The notes under the pieces are model-generated. The model saw nothing but the letters and a program-made list of their open reading frames with translations. It ran no database searches and was not told where the DNA came from. Positions 12 to 9,574 of a stretch of 52,372 bases of DNA are shown here, in pieces (the stretch's first letter is position 1; each line of letters starts with the position of its first letter). A program made the translations under genes and the position numbers. The stretch comes from Antarctobacter heliothermus (GTDB lineage Bacteria > Pseudomonadota > Alphaproteobacteria > Rhodobacterales > Rhodobacteraceae), in assembly GCF_900188425.1 (NCBI RefSeq), contig NZ_FZON01000035.1, forward strand, positions 1-52,372. The letters are read 5' to 3'.

Positions 12-211
12 ATGAAACGACCCAACCCACTCCCAGCGGACCAGATGACACCGGCTGAACGCCGCGCCGAACTGTGCGGGTTGCTGGCGCTCGGGTTGGT
101 TCGCCTGCGGATGCGGGATCAGGCGAAAGTATCTGACAATACAGGAGAAAGTTTCCTACACTATCCGGCCGACGAATGGCGTCATGCAACTCCAACTCAC
201 TGGAGAAACCC

Positions 212-215
<4 letters not shown>
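12..215 (+). CDS. small hypothetical protein of recombinase cassette
   Basis: This 67-aa protein is the first gene of a four-gene rightward cassette. I recognise no domain. Residues 10-35 (Thr-Pro-Ala-Glu-Arg-Arg-Ala-Glu then a Leu-rich stretch) look like one amphipathic helix, and the C-terminus is polar. Its stop codon overlaps the start of the DUF2924 gene by 4 bases (ATGA at 212-215). That points to translational coupling and supports it being real despite its size. The window begins only 11 bases upstream, so a longer N-terminus or upstream partner cannot be excluded. No function is assigned. Confidence 0.55.
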
Positions 216-660
<445 letters not shown>

Positions 661-664
<4 letters not shown>

Positions 665-1968
665 CCAAACCCATCATCAGAAAACTGCGTTGCGCCGTCT
701 ATACTCGAAAGTCATCGGAGGAAGGTCTTGAGCAAGAATTCAACAGCCTCCACGCCCAGCGGGAGTCATGTGAAGCCTACATCGCCAGCCAGCGCTCCGA
801 GGGCTGGGTGCTGGTCCGCGACCAGTATGATGACGGTGGCGTCTCCGGTGGCACGCTGGAACGCCCCGGCCTGAAACGCCTGCTGGCGGACGTCGAGGAT
901 GGCTTGGTCGACGTGGTCGTCGTGTACAAGATAGACCGCTTGTCGCGGTCGCTGATGGATTTTTCAAAATTGGTCGAGGTGTTTGACCGGAATGGTGTGA
1001 CATTCGTCTCGGTGACGCAATCGTTCAACACGACAACTTCCATGGGGCGGCTGACGCTGAACATTCTTCTGTCCTTTGCCCAATTCGAGCGCGAGGTGAC
1101 GGCCGAGCGGATCCGCGACAAGGTCCGCGCCAGCCGGATGAAGGGCATGTGGATGGGCGGCGTGCCTCCATTGGGCTACGTGGTGAAAGACCGGAAACTG
1201 ATCATCAAGGAGGTCGATGCCGCCAATGTCCGCTGGATCTTCGCCCGGTTCATCGAGATCGGATCGGGCACGGAGCTGGCGCGGGAACTGGCGGCGCGCG
1301 GCATCCGGACCAGCCGTGGCAACCGGATCGACAAGAAATACCTGTATCGCCTGCTGAACAACCGCGCCTACATCGGAGAAGCTGTCCACAAGGGCGACAG
1401 CTATCCTGGCGAGCATGACGGCATCATCGACCGCACGGTCTGGGACAAGGTCCATGCCATCCTGACCGAAAGCCCGCGCAAACGTGCTGCGCGCACCCGC
1501 GCGGACACGCCCGCATTGCTGAAAGGGTTGCTCTATGGCCCCGATGGCGCGGCGTTCTCTCCGACCCACACCCGCAAGAAGGGCAAGCTTTACCGCTACT
1601 ATGTCAGCCAGACTGTTTTGAAACACGGTGCAGGATCATGTCCGGTCGGCCGCGTTCCCGCGGGCGGAATCGAAACCGCCGTCATCGACCAGCTCCGCGC
1701 CGTGTTCCGCCAACCCGAAATCGTAGCGGGCACATGGAAAGCTGCACGCGCACAGGACGGCGATATCACTGAGGCCGACGCCCGTGACGCACTGGCCCGA
1801 CTCGATCTGCTCTGGGATGAACTCTTCCCCGCAGAGCAGGCGCGCATCGCGACACTGTTGGTCGAGCGGGTCGATATCGGCATCGATGGCCTCGATGTAC
1901 GCCTGCGCATGGACGGTCTGACCGGGCTGGCGCGGGAAATGATGGCGGATCTAGGAACGGCCGCATGA
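661..1968 (+). CDS. large serine recombinase (resolvase/invertase family)
   Basis: A 435-aa site-specific recombinase. The N-terminal resolvase domain (about 1-150) has the YTRKSS motif with nucleophile Ser18, the DDGGVSGG-x-LERPGL segment (57-71), IDRLSRSL (91-98) and an ERIRDK helix. A recombinase domain follows (about 155-260, starting MGGVPPLGY). The zinc-ribbon region near 280-330 lacks the usual CxxC pairs and keeps only SPTHTRKKGKLYRYYVSQ, so metal binding is doubtful. The length suits a full serine integrase of compact type. It lies in the ATGA-coupled cassette and probably mobilises or mobilised this island. Attachment sites are not visible in the window. Confidence 0.9.
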
Positions 1969-2357
1969 CCCGCGCGACGCCAGCACCGGAAACGGTGACA
2001 GTGCATGTCCCGTTTCGCCTCGTTAAGCGCGGCGGGCGCAAGGAGATGCAGATGCCGGATGGGGCATCCTGCCAACGCAAGATGGACAACACGTTGATCA
2101 AGGCGCTGGCGCGTGCTTTTCGCTGGAAAAGGATGCTGGAATCCGGCGAGTTCGCGACCATCGCCGAGTTAGCGGAGCACGAGGGGATCGCGCCGTCCTA
2201 CATGACCCGCGTCATGCGGCTGACGCTACTTGCGCCGGAGACTGTCGAGGCAATCGTCGAAGGGCAGCAGCCGCCTGACGCGAAGCTGGCAGACTTTCTG
2301 GAGCCGTTTCCAGTGGAATGGGTGGCGCAGCCATGGCTTCTTGCTGATCTTAGCTGA
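1965..2357 (+). CDS. hypothetical protein with HTH-like segment, recombinase partner
   Basis: A 130-aa protein starting by a 4-base ATGA overlap with the recombinase stop. Residues about 60-95 (SGEFATIAELAEHEGIAPSY followed by MTRVMRLTLLAPETVEAI) resemble a ParB/KorB-like helix-turn-helix. The N-terminus carries a basic LVKRGGRKEMQ stretch. Proteins with this outline commonly sit directly after large serine recombinases in alphaproteobacteria. A DNA-binding accessory or directionality role is plausible, but it rests on the HTH impression and gene order alone. Confidence 0.7.
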   Translation: MTRATPAPETVTVHVPFRLVKRGGRKEMQMPDGASCQRKMDNTLIKALARAFRWKRMLESGEFATIAELAEHEGIAPSYMTRVMRLTLLAPETVEAIVEGQQPPDAKLADFLEPFPVEWVAQPWLLADLS

Positions 2358-2533: not shown

Positions 2534-3823
2534 TTAAAGAGTTTTTGCAAGCGCATCAGCGAAGCGCTTCAAACCACGTCGGCCTGAAATTCCACAAACA
2601 CCGAGCTCGATTGCGCGGATTTGAACGCCGTCCGCAACGGCTCCGGCAAATTCTGCGGCATACCCAACCTCATCACTTGAGGTTAAAGCCCCTTCAACTG
2701 GCCTTGGATAAACAAGAGCGACCTCAGAAATTCCCGTCGCGCGCGCAAAAGCAAGAGATTCATAGATGTCTGCATTCGAGATCGATTTGGAGGAACGATC
2801 CACATGTCCTTTATATTTGGCATCTACGATTATACGGCGGACTCCTGCCGTACCGGCTATGGACACGATAGCATCAGGAAAAACGTTCAGATCTCTGATG
2901 ACACTATCTTGTGTTCTGGTTCCCAACTTGTTTGACGATTGGAGTTGGACGTTCTTGGGTGAAAAGGCATTGCGTAAAGATAATGAAATGAGTTGCTCCC
3001 AAACTTGCCATGTTTGCATAACATAGCCGGGAGCAAGTGCGTTTTTGGGATCATAAGCACCTCCCAAACCACGCAAAATATCTAGAGAAAGATCGAATGT
3101 TGGCTGCCAAGCTTTAGAGCGGCTTGGTAACCTCCGATCCTGGAGGCGCAGCGGCCTTGGCTGATGGGGTAGATGTTGTGCAAGACGCTCAAGGCGCAAC
3201 CGGGTTTCAACATCGGGCACGACCGGCGCTAGTCCAGCTGCGGCGGCCCTGATGATAGCGTTGTAAGGGTTCTCGCGCGTGAACGATGTTACCGATTGTG
3301 GAAAACCTTCTTCAGATGGCACGGATAAATCTTCTGGATCGAAATCCCCTTCGAGGGCAAAATCTTCGTGGTGCAAACGTCGATAGGTGCGCAAAGGTCG
3401 GCGCTGGTTTTTCCAGTACATCTCTATAAGCGAGCGACCAATCAAGGACGCGAGATCAGAATTCGCCCGCGCAGATGATTTGAGACCTTCATTATCGAGT
3501 AGTCGGCCATGGTGGGAAAGCATGGCCAACAGAAAGAAATCCTCGCGCCAGCCGGGCGCGCTGCCAAGGAATTTCGGAGCAATCTCAAGCTCTATACCCG
3601 AGGCTAAAACAAGCAGACCCGCCACATTTTGAAATTGGAGGCGGTCGGCATTGAAAGAGAGTGGAATGCTTTCTAGCCCGAGCGTGCCTCGAACGCGGTC
3701 TCCGGCTCGGAGCAAAAGCTCGCGAGCTGTGGCAACAGAAACATTGCTACGACGCGCAATTTCTTCGTGCAGTGCGGATGGCTTGGCGTATTCGATTGCT
3801 GTGAAGCGCTGCCACGGGCGCAT
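2534..3823 (-). CDS. mcrC: McrC-like restriction endonuclease subunit
   Basis: A 429-aa McrC/LlaJI-type protein. The N-terminal half holds the GIELEIAPKFLG segment typical of McrC (about 76-87). The C-terminal half has a PD-(D/E)xK nuclease core: FPDAIV (Pro316-Asp317) and IIVDAKYKG with Asp334-x-Lys336. In the McrBC family McrC is the nuclease partner of the GTPase McrB and cuts DNA after translocation. The gene is last in a five-gene leftward operon and starts 5 bases after the McrB-like stop. All expected catalytic residues are visible, so it looks active. The DNA is AT-richer than the flanking backbone, which suggests transfer. Confidence 0.88.
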   Translation of the reverse strand: MRPWQRFTAIEYAKPSALHEEIARRSNVSVATARELLLRAGDRVRGTLGLESIPLSFNADRLQFQNVAGLLVLASGIELEIAPKFLGSAPGWREDFFLLAMLSHHGRLLDNEGLKSSARANSDLASLIGRSLIEMYWKNQRRPLRTYRRLHHEDFALEGDFDPEDLSVPSEEGFPQSVTSFTRENPYNAIIRAAAAGLAPVVPDVETRLRLERLAQHLPHQPRPLRLQDRRLPSRSKAWQPTFDLSLDILRGLGGAYDPKNALAPGYVMQTWQVWEQLISLSLRNAFSPKNVQLQSSNKLGTRTQDSVIRDLNVFPDAIVSIAGTAGVRRIIVDAKYKGHVDRSSKSISNADIYESLAFARATGISEVALVYPRPVEGALTSSDEVGYAAEFAGAVADGVQIRAIELGVCGISGRRGLKRFADALAKTL

Positions 3824-3828
3824 AACAC

Positions 3829-4947
3829 TCAGACAGCCTTTTGTGACAAGGAAACGAACAAATCGTAGACCTTTGACGCATCCACACTCAACGGGCCGTT
3901 TATCATGGCACGGGGGGCATCGCCAAAGGATGTTTCCTCAAGGACAAATGGGTTTCCGGCAATGCCGCGGTCTGCATTCAGGATGATCGCAGTTCCGCGA
4001 ACATCCCCGAAAAATGCTTCATCTATGTGGTTCTTGATTGATCCCCAAGCAATCGCAAAATGCGCAAGGGCGTCTGATACGCTTGAAAGCTTGGCGCTAT
4101 TGCCCATCAGAACGCCATGACCAATCCTGAATTCCGGACCACGGCCAAGCGCAATCCTGTTATTGACGGCATCAAATGCCTGGATAGCCGCCTCTATCAC
4201 TTCGCCTGCGGAGCCAGGCGTCGGCGGTAATGTGGATACGGGGCTCGAAGCGGAACCAAAATGTGCGCGCAGCACAGAGGAAGAAGGCTCTAGGTTGACC
4301 GGAGCCCACCGTCTCAGGAAAGCGACGTCAAGCGGCTCTACCGAGACGTCGGCCTGATTCATTGCTCCAAGGATATAGAGTGTAGGCGGAAACGCGTACT
4401 CGATCAGATCACCATCTACGGGATTGATAATATCAAAGAACTGCGTGGCTGGTGTTGGTTTGCCGTCAGGGGCAAGGCGCTTGTCTGCTTCGATGGCGAC
4501 GATTGCTCCGCCAAATACCTGCACGGTCGGGCCTCGGTTGATTTCATCGATGATAAGCAGTGCTGCACTGTCTTTTTGCTTGGCGTATTCACTTGCCTTG
4601 TAGAGGATACCTTCGGTGATCCTGAACGATCCGGGCGCTTTGCCGCTTCGGACATCTGGCATCATGCCAGTCAGGAAATCACGATATTTGCTGGATTGGT
4701 GCAGAACACAGCGAAAGACTTTTCGGTTGGATGCCTTACCAATATTACCCGGAAGTGTGCTCGTCGGTGTCGGCGGGATGGGGACTGGTGCGTTTGGCTG
4801 GTACGTGGGCGTGCTGACATTGCCTTTGGCTTCAAAAAGACTGGCTACCTCGCTGAGCAGCATAGACTTCCCCGTGCCTGGCGGTCCCGCAAGCAATACG
4901 TTTCGGCGGGCTTCTAGCAGCGCCAGGATGTTGTTCGCATCAGCCAT
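3829..4947 (-). CDS. mcrB: McrB-like AAA+ GTPase restriction subunit
   Basis: A 372-aa AAA+ protein made almost only of the motor domain. Walker A GPPGTGKS is at 21-28, Walker B LLIIDEINRG at 130-139, and the McrB-type signature MNQAD at 196-200 (family form MNxxD, linked to GTP use in McrB), followed by an arginine pair at 212-213. It lacks the N-terminal DNA-reading domain of E. coli McrB, so sequence recognition must come from another subunit, plausibly the 188-aa protein encoded just upstream, whose stop overlaps this start by 8 bases. A MoxR-type ATPase is the alternative, but the MNxxD motif and the adjacent McrC favour McrB. Confidence 0.88.
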   Translation of the reverse strand: MADANNILALLEARRNVLLAGPPGTGKSMLLSEVASLFEAKGNVSTPTYQPNAPVPIPPTPTSTLPGNIGKASNRKVFRCVLHQSSKYRDFLTGMMPDVRSGKAPGSFRITEGILYKASEYAKQKDSAALLIIDEINRGPTVQVFGGAIVAIEADKRLAPDGKPTPATQFFDIINPVDGDLIEYAFPPTLYILGAMNQADVSVEPLDVAFLRRWAPVNLEPSSSVLRAHFGSASSPVSTLPPTPGSAGEVIEAAIQAFDAVNNRIALGRGPEFRIGHGVLMGNSAKLSSVSDALAHFAIAWGSIKNHIDEAFFGDVRGTAIILNADRGIAGNPFVLEETSFGDAPRAMINGPLSVDASKVYDLFVSLSQKAV

Positions 4948-5506
4948 GGGGGTACTGCCCTTTGGTTATCAAATCGAGAAACGCAGATTTGCATCCATCT
5001 GCAAACCAATCTTGGGCAAATTTCTTGATTCTAGGGTCCCAATTCTGTGTGCGTAGGCTGGTCTCTGTTGTGAAGTAGAGGCGGATATCGCCGTTGGCTT
5101 GTTGAAACATCATGAATACAGAGCGTCCACCATTGGGATCTGTTTGTATCAAGCTATCAAGAGCAAACTCGGAAATCCGCGCGATTCTGCATTCGTTGGG
5201 GCGCGCATCGGTCGAGGGCCAGATTTCCATCATGGCGCTTTTGTCACCGGTCGGTTCCTGCCAAATCACTGTGCCGCTCAGCACTTCTATTTGAGACGCA
5301 ACACCTTTTGCTTTTCGCGTTTTGAATGTCTTGTTCGGGAACATGCGCCGAAAAAATGGAAAAAACTCGGTTTCAGGCCTGAAGCGTAGATCACGAGCGC
5401 CGCCACCGCTGGCAGCGTCGTTTGACTTGGCTATGAACTTGCGCCGGTCGCCATCCTCAATATTTTGGAGAAGAACTCTCTCAATGACTTGCGAACTACT
5501 ATTCAC
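4940..5506 (-). CDS. unrecognised restriction-operon protein, candidate DNA-recognition subunit
   Basis: A 188-aa protein with no domain I recognise, starting at a GTG (5506) whose bases overlap the preceding methyltransferase stop (GTGA). An N-terminal segment SNDAASGGGARDLRFRP (about 28-44) looks like a conserved core. It is followed by a short FFPFFRRMFP patch and alternating strands to the end, giving a compact alpha/beta protein without membrane segments. It lies between the methyltransferase and McrB genes. In the BsuMI system of Bacillus subtilis a third restriction gene also accompanies McrB- and McrC-like genes, so this could be the equivalent DNA-reading or adaptor subunit. That role is inferred from position. 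Confidence 0.7.
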   Translation of the reverse strand: MNSSSQVIERVLLQNIEDGDRRKFIAKSNDAASGGGARDLRFRPETEFFPFFRRMFPNKTFKTRKAKGVASQIEVLSGTVIWQEPTGDKSAMMEIWPSTDARPNECRIARISEFALDSLIQTDPNGGRSVFMMFQQANGDIRLYFTTETSLRTQNWDPRIKKFAQDWFADGCKSAFLDLITKGQYPHG

Positions 5507-7725
5507 TGGGCGGCCTCATTAAGCTTTTCTTTTATACTGTCGGAAAACTCGGAGCTGACATAAGGCATGGCTCCAAGTTGGAGCGCGGATTCTACACGCT
5601 TAGCATTATACTGGTCGTCTCCACGGGTCTTTTTGAGCCAAGTTGACAGCAAAAAATCTTCGGTAATCGTGGAGGAAAGCTCGCTTGGCAGTGCGGGCTG
5701 GCCACGATCTAATAAGGGGAAGTCGCCCAGCATGAGCCGTAGATCATCATGTGAGCAACTATAGGCCCTTGCCACCAGAACATCAGCCTCGGCGCGAAGT
5801 TCAGCAATGCGCCAGAGCGTCTCCGCGTTCGAATTCCTACCTTGATCGAGCTGCTGCAATTTACGTGCAATACCAATGAGACGCTGCGCAGGAAGAGACT
5901 TGATGTCGATCTTTGGCAGACGAAGTGAGCGAAGAACGAAATAGTTCACTGTTGTTGTGACGATCCGGCGGAGCAGCCAGTCGAAGGGGATTGAATTCAC
6001 AATGGCGAGCCACAGGAATATCCGTTCTTCAGATGGATCATTGGGGAAAGTGAGCGTCGGGACCTTGTTTCCACAAACAACGCCAGGTGGGATTAACGCT
6101 GCCATCATGGAGCGTTCGTTGGTTTGGCCAGTAATGTCACAAAAACCGGCGCGCATGCGCTGTGAGCGCCCCTTGGCTTGTGCAGATGCCACTCTCATGG
6201 GCAGCCAGAATTGGGGGGCAATCCGGCTCTCACCCAAAGCGAGATTGCGCCAAACAGCGCTGCGTCCTTCACCTGAGATGTAGGCCTTACAACCCAAACG
6301 GTGCGGCTGCACCATTCGGCCTTCTATGACGGGCAAGCATCCATCTTGTGGCTGCTTGACGAAGTGACGACGGCCATGGGTCATATCGATTTCGCGGCAA
6401 AATTCAGGATGCCATGGCGAATCTGCTAATGATAGAAGCGATCCATTCATCTGCATTTTCTTGAATAGTCGCCATTCTTCGGCTGAGCGCACCTCGGGAA
6501 CAGTAAGATCGGAGCGCAGGCGGTTGAGGTCTTTTAAGGGTAAGCGGACTGGTGTGGCAGCCGTTACGCGTTCGTTGTCGGCGAAGGCATGACCGACCCC
6601 AATAGCCGCAAGCGGTTTACTGGATACTGAACTGCGGCGGTAATTCACAACCAGGAATTTAAATCTTGTGTCAATGGCAAAATGCCGCGCGCGGTTCTCT
6701 AATACCGTGAAGGTGAGATCATCACAGCCCTGCGCGAGTGCTCGCCTGAGTGATTCTGTATTGAGGGAGCGTATCAATCCTGCCGGAACGAGGAGTGCGC
6801 CGTGCCCACCTGCAAGCGTGAGCTTGTACAAAAGCTCGGTGAAAGCGACATACAGATCAGGTTCGCCTTTTGCCAGAACGGGGTAGCGCTCAACTAGGGA
6901 ACTAGCCATAGCAGCCCTCTGGGTTTTTGCCGCATCATACCCAGCAAGAGATTGAAGACTATAACTGGTCCCGTATTCACGGGTTTGTCCGTTGGCTTTG
7001 ATGTATTCGTGCCGTGTGAGTTTGACCTTTTCCCAAGGGGGGTTCGCGATCACAACATCAAAGCCGACTGGGCTTAGATCAAGCCATGAGGCGTCTGAGG
7101 CAAGTAGGCTATCCTGTGCGCGCCAATGTGCATACATGGCAAAAATAGCGTCCAGATCGTCTGTGAGAGATGCAAGTGAAAGCCGGGTGCCGCGCAAAGC
7201 CATGGGCGATAGATCAGCGGCATAAACCGAGTGCCTCAGCCATTCGCTGGCCAGAATTCTATCCGGTCCGCAAGCAACAATGGACACGGCTGTAAGCAGT
7301 ATTCCAGCGCCGCAGGCTGGATCAATAACCTTGGCCCCTTCTTTGAGGTGTATCTCCACGCTCTGGGCAAGATGCAAAGCGAGGCGGAAATCCGTGTGGT
7401 ATGCGCCGCTTTTGCGTTGTTCAGTATGGTCTAGCGCCTCGCGTGCAAGCGCACTTAAACATAGGGACGGATGGATGCCTGTATCATCTAAAAGCTGAAC
7501 AAGGTCTCTTGCGTCATCGAGCAATTGCTCTGACGCAACCAAGGGCTTGATCCCAAATCTTGCGCAAAACCCTTCGAATGCGAAGCCACCAAGCCGAGAG
7601 GATGCTGCTTCCAGTAGTTGGAAGCGCAGCTCATCGTTATTGCCCGTGTGGCGTGCGATACATTGGGTGATGTAAGCATCAGCCTTAGCGAGGCGTTTAC
7701 CTTCAACTGTACTCGATGGTTTCAT
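5503..7725 (-). CDS. N6-adenine DNA methyltransferase, Eco57I/type IIG-like
   Basis: A 740-aa methyltransferase. A RKSGAYHT segment precedes SAM motif I (DPACGAG, about 135-141), and catalytic motif IV is NPPW (about 228-231). The long C-terminal half would hold the target-recognition region. Such enzymes methylate adenine N6. No PD-(D/E)xK nuclease motif is obvious at the N-terminus, so unlike true type IIG enzymes it probably relies on the neighbouring McrBC-like nuclease for cutting. The ATG at 7725 is preferred over one at 7737 because it overlaps the upstream stop as ATGA. The second methyltransferase just upstream suggests that each enzyme protects one strand of an asymmetric site (inference). 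Confidence 0.88.
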   Translation of the reverse strand: MKPSSTVEGKRLAKADAYITQCIARHTGNNDELRFQLLEAASSRLGGFAFEGFCARFGIKPLVASEQLLDDARDLVQLLDDTGIHPSLCLSALAREALDHTEQRKSGAYHTDFRLALHLAQSVEIHLKEGAKVIDPACGAGILLTAVSIVACGPDRILASEWLRHSVYAADLSPMALRGTRLSLASLTDDLDAIFAMYAHWRAQDSLLASDASWLDLSPVGFDVVIANPPWEKVKLTRHEYIKANGQTREYGTSYSLQSLAGYDAAKTQRAAMASSLVERYPVLAKGEPDLYVAFTELLYKLTLAGGHGALLVPAGLIRSLNTESLRRALAQGCDDLTFTVLENRARHFAIDTRFKFLVVNYRRSSVSSKPLAAIGVGHAFADNERVTAATPVRLPLKDLNRLRSDLTVPEVRSAEEWRLFKKMQMNGSLLSLADSPWHPEFCREIDMTHGRRHFVKQPQDGCLPVIEGRMVQPHRLGCKAYISGEGRSAVWRNLALGESRIAPQFWLPMRVASAQAKGRSQRMRAGFCDITGQTNERSMMAALIPPGVVCGNKVPTLTFPNDPSEERIFLWLAIVNSIPFDWLLRRIVTTTVNYFVLRSLRLPKIDIKSLPAQRLIGIARKLQQLDQGRNSNAETLWRIAELRAEADVLVARAYSCSHDDLRLMLGDFPLLDRGQPALPSELSSTITEDFLLSTWLKKTRGDDQYNAKRVESALQLGAMPYVSSEFSDSIKEKLNEAAQ

Positions 7726-8765
7726 GCGGCGACGCACTTTGCTTGTTTGGTCTTGTCGATGCAGAAAAGCAGCTCGCCAACATCCGAGGCGGCTTTGCTT
7801 GCTGCCTTGTTGGGGCGATAACGCCCAATATTTTGGAGTGAATGAAGGCTAACGTCTCCGATTCCTGCCAGGTTTTCAGAGAGTGTCTCAATCGGAACGT
7901 GGCCCTCAGTACTATAAGACAGGAATATTCGCTGTGCCGGAAGGCTAGAGACAAGGCGTTCAATTGCCTTGGCAGCTCTACCTTTATAGCAAAAATCAGA
8001 GGCTTTCTCGCGCCATGGTCGAATGCCACAAACACCCTCGACCTCGGGCTCATCTCCAAGGGCAATAGTTTCAAGGATGTGATAATAGGCTGCGTACTGG
8101 CGCTTTGTGTAAGGCGGATCGAGATAGACAGTATCTTCAGGCTTGCATCGTACCTTATTCACGTCCTGAGAGCCCAACGTTGCGCGTGGAGCGCTTTCGG
8201 GCAATTTAGCTGGCTCGATAACCAGAGGATCAAGCGATTGCCTTTGCCATTTAGATAAAAAGCATCCGTAGGTTCCAGCCGTATTTGCGATACGATTTGC
8301 GGCACGCATCAAATCAGCAATAAGAACTTGCTGCTCATGTAGTGTAATGACGCCTTGCTCACGCCATTGGCGAATCTGATGGCGCATGCCATCGATCTTT
8401 TGTGCATTGTCTTCGGTGAAATACATCCGCGACACTGCGCAGTGATTAGATGAAGCTGGGCTGTACTGACGCCAGATGAAGCCTTGAAGGGGCCGCGTTT
8501 CATTAAGGGCCGCAATGGCGTCACTGTAGCTGGAAAGACCCGCGAAAGGTATGTCCGCTTGTGAGCTCAGCCGCGCAAAAGACATGATGGCCGATGATGC
8601 CAAGTGGTCATTCACGTGCACCTTCCAACCTGCGCGCGAAGCGGCTTGCGCAACGGCACCAGTTCCGGCGAATGCATCCACGAACACGCCTCCATCAGGT
8701 TGGCCAACATGTTCAATGATGGCCTCCACGATGCGCGCCTTGGAGCCAATATACCGGAATGACAT
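7722..8765 (-). CDS. D12-class DNA adenine methyltransferase
   Basis: A 347-aa MethyltransfD12 protein. The start YIGSK (5-9) contacts SAM in this class; motif I is DAFAGTGAV (30-38), an ND acidic pair follows at 52-53, and catalytic motif DPPYTKRQYA begins at 216. It is the first gene of the leftward restriction operon and is joined to the next methyltransferase by an ATGA overlap. I chose the ATG at 8765 because it begins right before the conserved FRYIGSK core and has GGGAG upstream; an ATG at 8831 would add 22 residues unlike the family. Dam-like orphan activity is possible, but the operon argues for a restriction-modification role. Confidence 0.87.
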   Translation of the reverse strand: MSFRYIGSKARIVEAIIEHVGQPDGGVFVDAFAGTGAVAQAASRAGWKVHVNDHLASSAIMSFARLSSQADIPFAGLSSYSDAIAALNETRPLQGFIWRQYSPASSNHCAVSRMYFTEDNAQKIDGMRHQIRQWREQGVITLHEQQVLIADLMRAANRIANTAGTYGCFLSKWQRQSLDPLVIEPAKLPESAPRATLGSQDVNKVRCKPEDTVYLDPPYTKRQYAAYYHILETIALGDEPEVEGVCGIRPWREKASDFCYKGRAAKAIERLVSSLPAQRIFLSYSTEGHVPIETLSENLAGIGDVSLHSLQNIGRYRPNKAASKAASDVGELLFCIDKTKQAKCVAA

Positions 8766-9484
8766 GTGTGCCGTTCTCCCTGCCTTGTTCAATTTTTTTG
8801 TTATCATGCCGGGCGTGAGCGGAAGTGGCATGTTTGGCGTATAATCCCCGCGACCTTCTCAGGCGTTAAGGTTTGGTGGAATGATTGCCGAAAATGGTGG
8901 CGTGGTCCTCGCGGCGTGGTTTGTAAATCGCCGCCAACATGGCACGAACAGGCGGGACGTAGCAATATCTTGTAGGCACAAGAGACAGCAGTGCTGCTTC
9001 TTGTGCAGAGTATCTGCTTGGACTCGCGCGCAGATGCGCGGGCGGCATCCCAACAGTCGTCTATTGCTCAAGCGTCGAGTGGGTCAGGAACATCCCGCCA
9101 GTCGGCAGGATGTTTCCAAGGCAGTTGTAGCGGCGAAGCGCGCCCTTTCTGGTTTCCATGAAATGGTCGTGGGGGCACCCCATCTCCGCAAGCAGGCCAC
9201 ACCTTAGCAATTGCCGCAAGGAGTTCCGATTTCAGGTCCATTTGACCGAACGACACTGGCGTCGAAGTGCGATATCTCCATGAAAAAAAATCCGAAGGAT
9301 CAGTGCTTTACCGACTCTGCACCAAATCGGCGCAGTCAACAGGTCCGGAGAATATCGGCCTGGAGAGAACACATTTGGGCATGCTGCCCCAGGTGCCGGT
9401 TAACAGCCCCTCCGGCATAACCTTTGAATATAACGGAAAAATCCGGCCACAGCCGAATCGGGAGAAACGTTTCTCAAGGGCAAG
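8766..9484. other. gene-poor junction between restriction island and tRNA-Ser
   Basis: About 720 bases without a gene I can support. Short ORFs exist (for example 8881-9207 on + and 9068-9256 on -), but their translations show no family pattern or convincing start. A CATGCC...GGCATG inverted repeat near 8806-8833 and an ATTATA-like element at 8840-8845 could belong to the promoter of the restriction operon. The stretch ends at the tRNA-Ser 3' end, a usual integration point, so it may hold decayed island DNA. I found no copy of the tRNA 3' end inside it. Confidence 0.4.
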
Positions 9485-9574
9485 TGGCGGAGGCTCAGGG
9501 ATTCGAACCCTGGGGACGCTCTCACGCCCAACGGTTTTCAAGACCGCCGCATTCGACCACTCTGCCAAACCTCC
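9485..9574 (-). tRNA. tRNA-Ser (anticodon UGA)
   Basis: The 90-nt class-II tRNA folds fully. The acceptor GGAGGTT pairs with AGCCTCC, the anticodon arm reads GGTCTTGAAAACC with anticodon UGA, there is a long serine-type variable arm, a GGTTCGAATCC T-arm and an encoded CCA (9485-9487 on the complementary strand). It reads UCA/UCG-type serine codons. It marks the border between the accessory island on the left and conserved backbone on the right. Confidence 0.97.

Follow-up and report, generated by a model that had tools for sequence, protein, structure and literature searches.

A probable, apparently mobile McrBC-like restriction operon of Antarctobacter heliothermus with two adenine methyltransferases and a separate protein of predicted B3 fold

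We analyzed a 52,372-nucleotide stretch of Antarctobacter heliothermus DNA (contig NZ_FZON01000035.1, positions 1 to 52,372; from here on, the window), which carries on its minus strand, between positions 8765 and 2534, five overlapping genes that appear to make up a mobile antiviral restriction system (Table 1). In order, they encode a D12-class methyltransferase, a second methyltransferase (MTase2), a 188-amino-acid (aa) protein, an McrB-type GTPase, and an McrC-type nuclease subunit. We consider it likely that these products form a complete, mobile McrBC-like Type II restriction-modification system in which a separate protein of B3 fold acts as the recognizer.

Five genes inherited as one unit

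The coordinates, gene order, and motifs of the initial annotation held, and its picture of a single minus-strand operon with overlapping genes and one 5-base gap was borne out by open reading frame (ORF) calls, conserved start sites, and recurrence, which all agree. Mechanical ORF calling let the D12 gene begin at 8831 (8831..7722) and gave MTase2 as 7737..5503, with a GTG at 7737 that yields 744 aa; the D12 start at 8765 (MSFRYIGSK, 347 aa) was conserved at 10 of 11 scanned loci (loci are referred to by L numbers), with L009 lacking a match to the pattern. With the conserved starts, the successive gene junctions measure -4, -4, -8, and +5 bases. The G+C content of the operon region is 51 to 54%, versus mostly 58 to 66% in its surroundings.

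Whether the five-gene order recurs in other genomes, a check proposed in the initial annotation, could be answered directly: all five genes were found in the same order at 17 of 19 loci, the window included. The other two loci, L007 and L008, are both cut short by contig ends, and this recurrence excludes a chance origin of the arrangement. Hosts include Rhodobacteraceae, Bosea, sphingomonads, a Citrobacter plasmid, on which the operon sits amid transfer genes of an integrating-conjugative element, and an actinobacterial Pimelobacter plasmid (one of two Pimelobacter records was covered). As for redundancy, L023, L028, L047, and L050 are one contig, as are L025, L030, L049, and L052; L024, L029, L048, and L051 are likewise one contig, with operon DNA identical to that of L004, and were counted together with it. 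L027 and L053 are one, L022 and L031 belong to one genome, and L012 and L015 are the two ends of one circular plasmid, the operon of which is nearly identical to that of L020 (both were counted). McrC was called shorter at one end in L020 and L027.

Queries with the individual proteins led to a common set of records. Among 72,556 plasmid records, the 188-aa protein retrieved 6; MTase2 retrieved 37, of which the six with at least 80% query coverage were the six of the 188-aa protein, and McrC retrieved 7, namely, those six and one distant Streptomyces record. The D12 query gave 100 plasmid records, with identity dropping from 48% (family) to 35% (outside) within the best 60 of the 100. In the viral collection, the 188-aa protein matched five contigs, and the contigs matched by McrC (three), MTase2 (three), and D12 (four) were all among these five. 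The McrB query led to eight related loci in genome contigs. The 188-aa query matched 2 of 394 genomes in the family sample, the window's own included, and 1 of 385 in the class sample, which was the window's own. The initial annotation had named separate occurrence of the methyltransferases and the McrBC genes as a finding that would count against a single system; within the collections searched, those of this clade were not found apart, since independent queries of the plasmid collection converge on the same records. When loci are compared in pairs, the identities of the D12, MTase2, McrB, and McrC proteins correlate with one another at 0.90 to 0.99 (nine close loci; comparisons of identity, exchange, and correlation between loci covered named subsets only), and co-inheritance of the five genes as one unit is supported.

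An IS66 element breaks the run of genes at 2 of the 17 full loci. In Meridianimarinicoccus roseus (L005:8392-10885; transposase E 1.8e-97), it lies within McrC, and both methyltransferase genes are open. On the Sphingobium baderi plasmid pDE3, it separates MTase2 from the 188-aa gene (L015:4993-7413, L012:91), a position that is uninterrupted in L020, whose operon is nearly identical.

Two plasmids outside the family were also noted. The Streptomyces plasmid was excluded from it, as its matches to D12 and the 188-aa protein were no better than E 0.26 and E 0.49, respectively. Within about 14 to 15 kb of this plasmid (L054:3215-18203) lie reading frames for a large methyltransferase and for remote relatives of McrB and McrC, perhaps another methyltransferase-linked McrBC. 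A Roseobacter litoralis plasmid (L018:2263-6108) carries an N-6 methylase and a D12 methylase (35% identity to that of the window) next to an opposite-strand gene for an unknown 372-aa protein, perhaps a different Type IIS system.

Table 1. Features of the window discussed in the text
Feature	Position	Strand	Basis or remark
D12-class N6-adenine DNA methyltransferase	7722..8765	-	347 aa; Pfam MethyltransfD12, PADLOC MTase_II
MTase2, Eco57I / Alw26I-Eco31I-Esp3I-like, NPPW	5503..7725	-	740 aa; Pfam Eco57I
188-aa protein of predicted B3 fold, presumably a free-standing subunit for DNA recognition	4940..5506	-	AlphaFold and Foldseek
Presumed base-reading arm, glycine-rich loop, residues 19-41 of the 188-aa protein	5384..5452	-	Near-invariant columns
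McrB-type AAA+ GTPase without N-terminal recognition domain	3829..4947	-	372 aa; McrB structure 6hz4
McrC-type PD-(D/E)xK nuclease subunit	2534..3823	-	429 aa; P316 D317, D334 A335 K336
Promoter- or operator-like pair ACAAGATATTGCT and GTGCCATGTT	8936..8973	-	Patterns 22 bases apart
tRNA-Ser (UGA), island integration site	9485..9574	-	ARAGORN
Large serine recombinase of carrying element	661..1968	+	Pfam Resolvase E 1.6e-38, Recombinase E 4.4e-15
DUF2924 protein	176..664	+	Pfam DUF2924 E 3.9e-52
130-aa protein	1965..2357	+	Weak MarR/Rrf2 matches only

Two methyltransferases, a motor, and a nuclease

Family matches and conserved motifs confirmed the gene identities first proposed, namely, D12, an NPPW methyltransferase, a motor-only McrB, and McrC. 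The window operon encodes the motifs DPPY, NPPW, GPPGTGKS, DEINRG, MNQAD, and PD...DAK, and the catalytic motifs of these four recognizable enzymes are intact and conserved across the 16 or 17 sequences compared. D12 matched Pfam MethyltransfD12 (E 1.5e-29) and PADLOC MTase_II (E 2.6e-66; PADLOC was used here as individual protein models), with DPPY present in 16 of 16 sequences. MTase2 matched Pfam Eco57I (E 1.6e-9) and NCBIfam TIGR02987 (E 5e-25, yet below the cut-off, at 88 versus 353 bits), and all 16 sequences have NPPW. The two enzymes fall in the D12 and Eco57I/N6_Mtase families, not in the C5-cytosine type. Both families include Type IIS enzymes (the name Alw26I comes from the NCBIfam match), which is what one would anticipate if the target were asymmetric and had an adenine to methylate in both strands. 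Across the 18 loci that hold methyltransferase genes, no internal stops were seen in their high-scoring segment pairs, and both transposon insertions leave these genes intact.

MTase2 also matched mad2 of the MADS system (PADLOC, E 2.5e-15), as it might if the operon were part of, or akin to, a more extensive defense linked to methylation, such as MADS or BREX. We regard this as highly improbable: MTase2 scored 24 bits with the NCBIfam MAD2 model, for which the cut-off is 720; the only other MADS match was a weak one to the mad8 ATPase (E 0.0067); no BREX name occurs among the PADLOC matches listed (for D12, the best 25); and in the annotated plasmids compared the five genes bound the unit. 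Pimelobacter may have a sixth gene, which encodes an endonuclease VII-domain protein and overlaps the end of McrC (L013:10928-11689).

McrB matched Pfam AAA_5 (E 2.9e-13) and the McrB structure 6hz4 (E 6e-17). Its Walker A motif starts at residue 21, and in 11 aligned proteins the P-loop lies some 20 to 30 residues from the start, with no R1-type recognition domain fused ahead of it, so that the sequence supports the original description of McrB as motor-only. NxxD is present in 17 of 17 McrB sequences, 14 of which have exactly MNQAD. The top PADLOC match of McrB is REase_II PDLC03547 (E 2.6e-7), a model that spans the whole length of LlaJI.R1, as identified with the LlaJI copy of L034. McrC matched Pfam McrBC (E 8.7e-22) and no PADLOC model, LlaJI.R2 included. 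Retention of its PD-(D/E)xK nuclease site, as first read, is supported by the presence of PD...DAK in all 16 McrC sequences, among them the interrupted gene of L005, and by the invariance of the catalytic residues in 11 aligned proteins.

The motor and nuclease of Escherichia coli McrBC, a Type IV system, are homologous to the window's McrB and McrC, and McrBC is discussed as Type IV by Bell et al. 2024 (PMC11090510), who also note methyltransferase-associated branches. The operon could, on that basis, encode a modification-dependent Type IV McrBC that merely happens to be encoded in one operon with methyltransferases of another role, for example, in gene regulation. This seems to us quite improbable, as neither McrB nor the 188-aa protein matched a methyl-reading domain (DUF3578, YTH, EVE, or SRA-like), the methyltransferase genes accompany the nuclease genes at all 17 uncut loci, and a carrier would suffer from a nuclease that attacked marks set by the neighboring genes of the operon.

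A predicted B3 fold for the 188-amino-acid protein

Searches with the 188-aa protein against Pfam, NCBIfam, PADLOC, PHROGs, and PDB sequences gave nothing convincing, and other members of its family likewise matched no family model; a PDB search with its profile gave no match, and a viral structure library gave none under E 0.001 and nothing informative. AlphaFold predicted a confident barrel both for the window protein (pLDDT 88.0, pTM 0.85; 8-row alignment) and for a distant 171-aa relative (pLDDT 85.3, pTM 0.85; 11-row alignment). In Foldseek comparisons with the PDB, B3 domains took 11 of the top 13 places for the window model (best E 0.03) and all 15 top places for the relative, many of these matches being chains of the same plant proteins; one of the relative's 15, 1yel, we take to be a B3 domain. 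The relative was matched best (E 9.4e-4) by the recognition domain of BfiI in its DNA-bound form; the LlaJI.R1 N-terminal domain from Helicobacter pylori (6c5d) came fourth (E 0.11) and the B3 domain of UbaLAI sixth (E 0.12). By these models, a B3 fold seems well supported, and kinship to any particular B3 domain is tentative. The separate recognizer put forward in the initial annotation is supported as far as a modeled DNA-recognition fold is concerned, while recognition itself is a prediction from that fold.

Conservation within the family points to one segment. Among 13 aligned proteins, 12 of the 15 invariant columns fall in residues 19 to 41 (hypergeometric P 1.8e-10, for a segment picked after the alignment had been viewed). 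By analogy with B3 enzymes in general, from which the assignment is drawn, we presume this segment to be the base-reading arm; its residues 31 to 35 have low model confidence.

Relation to LlaJI and its kin

LlaI, BsuMI, LlaJI, and their homologs are described by Fukuda et al. 2008 (PMC2614495) as McrBC-related Type II systems that cut unmethylated DNA and have a pair of Type IIS methyltransferases. Bell et al. 2024 (PMC11090510) mention branches of McrB GTPases that associate with methyltransferases, with their description deferred. Since the former defines a class and the latter reports methyltransferase-linked McrB branches, the operon belongs to a known kind, and the initial statement that it could not be matched to a named system is not supported. 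An McrB-type AAA+ GTPase (Walker A/B, NxxD), an McrC-type nuclease, and a methyltransferase pair in the operon are all features of that rare class, of which the operon looks like a variant. This particular composition was not found under a name in Pfam, NCBIfam, and PADLOC (five proteins) or PHROGs (three of the five), and neither a separate B3 subunit nor this methyltransferase pair was found among the papers listed in searches of a largely open-license library.

Like the window operon, LlaJI (Lactococcus; L033 and L034) has two methyltransferase genes, which precede those for a GTPase of McrB type and a nuclease of McrC type, and the 188-aa family bears a weak structural resemblance to H. 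pylori LlaJI.R1-N. In LlaJI, according to PMC12707154 and PMC1459862, a B3 domain reads an unmodified asymmetric site that is guarded by two methyltransferases, and the former source places the recognition domain of characterized McrBC relatives at the N terminus of McrB. The systems differ in that LlaJI has two cytosine methyltransferases, whereas those of the window operon are adenine methyltransferases of unlike classes, and in that the 585-aa R1 protein of LlaJI fuses the recognition domain to the motor, whereas B3 protein and motor are separate here. Since McrB lacks an N-terminal domain and is overlapped by 8 bases by the B3 gene upstream, the simplest reading is that of LlaJI.R1 in two pieces.

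In a system of this kind, D12 and MTase2 would share the work of protecting one asymmetric site, each forming N6-methyladenine in one of its two strands. The 188-aa protein, given its modeled fold, would bind that site when unmethylated and load the McrB GTPase ring, which, to judge from the homology of McrB and McrC, would translocate along the DNA together with McrC, and McrC would cut. In effect, this would be a LlaJI in which the recognition domain of R1 has become a separate protein, encoded ahead of the motor, and in which adenine methyltransferases of two different types replace the two cytosine enzymes. From homology, we infer the cutting of unmethylated DNA, the use of GTP, and translocation, an inverted restriction logic that would fit the LlaI/BsuMI/LlaJI class.

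The methylase of LlaI is a FokI-like fused adenine methylase, both parts of which are D12-like. LlaI, from the Lactococcus plasmid pTR2030, has three restriction genes in an operon with a methylase, as the title of O'Sullivan 1995 has it, and recognizes unmodified sequence and needs two methyltransferases, according to PMC3874153. Because LlaI, too, has three restriction genes, the split architecture may have a precedent. The LlaI sequence, sought through the plasmid matches of D12 and McrB, was not recognized among the best 60 of 100, 277, and 164 matches; two Lactococcus loci reached from D12 matches are AlwI-type systems, and two reached from McrB matches are LlaJI.

In UbaLAI and in enzymes of the EcoRII type, the B3 domain is fused to the catalytic chain. 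The B3 domains of both UbaLAI and BfiI are Foldseek matches of the 188-aa family. In BfiI, as given in PMC4081073, the B3-like recognition domain is C-terminal and fused to the catalytic chain, whereas the 188-aa protein is free-standing.

Exchange of the 188-amino-acid gene

The 188-aa gene is swapped between lineages without the methyltransferases. L005 and L025 share 90 to 93% identity in D12, MTase2, and McrC and 84% in McrB, versus 49% in the 188-aa protein; similarly, L002 and L003 share 82 to 90% elsewhere and 57% in this protein. L002 and L005 have the other allele type in common (63%). The tract of low identity coincides with the 188-aa gene and, in L005, takes in roughly the first 80 residues of McrB. 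Where the tract begins on the left is uncertain, since most of the pairs compared also differ at the C terminus of MTase2. As the N terminus of McrB was exchanged along with the 188-aa gene in L005 versus L025 and not in L002 versus L003, that is, in one pair only, we make no claim that it serves in docking. Identities of the 188-aa protein correlate only at 0.64 to 0.71 with those of the other four genes (nine close loci). Between alleles, residues 1 to 20 and about 41 to 120 vary, and residues 21 to 40 are better kept. A matching change in the recognition regions of the methyltransferases was expected and not seen; apart from the variable end of MTase2, neither enzyme changes along with the alleles.

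An exchange that leaves both methyltransferases in place, together with the low correlation, suits the main rival explanation, in which the methyltransferases or McrB and McrC perform recognition and the 188-aa protein is an accessory with a B3-like barrel, such as a loading clamp, a regulator, or a decoy for phage inhibitors. We consider this unlikely. The N-terminal recognition domain that characterized McrBC relatives have on McrB, according to PMC12707154, is absent from the window protein, and the 188-aa gene lies directly upstream of McrB and overlaps it; LlaJI.R1-N and the BfiI recognition domain are among the structural neighbors of the 188-aa family; and the variation between alleles spares residues 21 to 40, within the loop of residues 19 to 41 that is near-invariant across the family.

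Several points weigh against a restriction system with a B3 recognizer. A specificity subunit swapped on its own should harm the cell, unless the alleles read the same site. Only a single Foldseek match lay under E 0.001; the B3 superpositions are loose (TM about 0.2 to 0.5 by query length), with two-domain plant matches superposing poorly (rmsd mostly 14 to 20 Å), and the alignments under the models are shallow, with 8 and 11 rows. The N termini of LlaJI-type R1 proteins gave nothing against the 188-aa profile. Sequence kinship with EcoRII-N, suggested by a resemblance seen by eye (SND..SGG versus SANDT..SGSHQAG), was set aside because the hhalign P values (0.039 with 2 sequences and 0.12 with 10) were not significant; the hhalign register was partly compatible with the motif, and global mode gave nothing. 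Finally, that both transposon insertions fall in the restriction half has, by length, a rough chance probability of one in four.

For a B3 protein that does recognize the site, the first of these points may have an answer: since the exchange spares the methyltransferases while the loop stays near-invariant, all members may recognize one site, or sites that hardly differ. From the sequences, the family may keep one target site. A possible, if doubtful, account is that a free B3 specificity subunit is swapped between lineages and the target is fixed by two methyltransferases that are unable to change together.

Genomic setting and upstream boxes

Judged by genome comparison, the operon is part of an island that adjoins the 3' end of a tRNA-Ser gene; in five of five congener genomes, the matches end at window positions 9481 to 9485, the 3' end of this gene. 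A cassette of a large serine recombinase, a DUF2924 protein, and a 130-aa protein adjoins the operon in the window, L028, L030, L005, and L031, in L031 in the opposite orientation. Among the window and 17 other loci, a tRNA-Ser gene is near the operon in the window, L008, L030, and L031, with three anticodons represented; in L027, a tRNA-Lys gene is near it. The cassette was observed near tRNA-Ser genes of differing anticodon in the window, L030, and L031. Tyrosine integrases are the enzymes that more commonly insert elements at tRNA genes. As for attachment repeats, no exact repeat of at least 12 bases of the tRNA 3' end was found in the window, L008, L030, or L031; since the window starts at a contig end, it may lack the distal part of the island. 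The operon seems to have several carriers, since the recombinase was not matched in the stretches compared of L002, L003, L004, L006, and L009.

Upstream of the D12 gene, two sequence boxes recur together at 7 of 10 loci with a constant offset of 22 bases, amid otherwise diverged sequence. The first box has a single copy in the window (at most 2 mismatches), and a consensus promoter scan did not include the boxes at 8936 to 8973 among its calls. They may represent a promoter or an operator, or they may take part in a control that responds to methylation, of the sort described for LlaJI.

Implications

To our knowledge, McrBC-like Type II systems have few worked examples, and how DNA is handed over to the GTPase ring is unsettled. 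With recognizer, motor, and nuclease as three proteins, each step could be reconstituted apart. Such systems may be missed in surveys, since PADLOC is without a model for the 188-aa protein or McrC and matched McrB weakly. The allele exchange offers a natural test of what varies in a B3 recognizer when two methyltransferases fix the target. If the target is indeed fixed in this way, the rest of the 188-aa protein would diversify, perhaps escaping phage inhibitors, and one methylation motif would be common to the members of the family, from Rhodobacteraceae to Pimelobacter.

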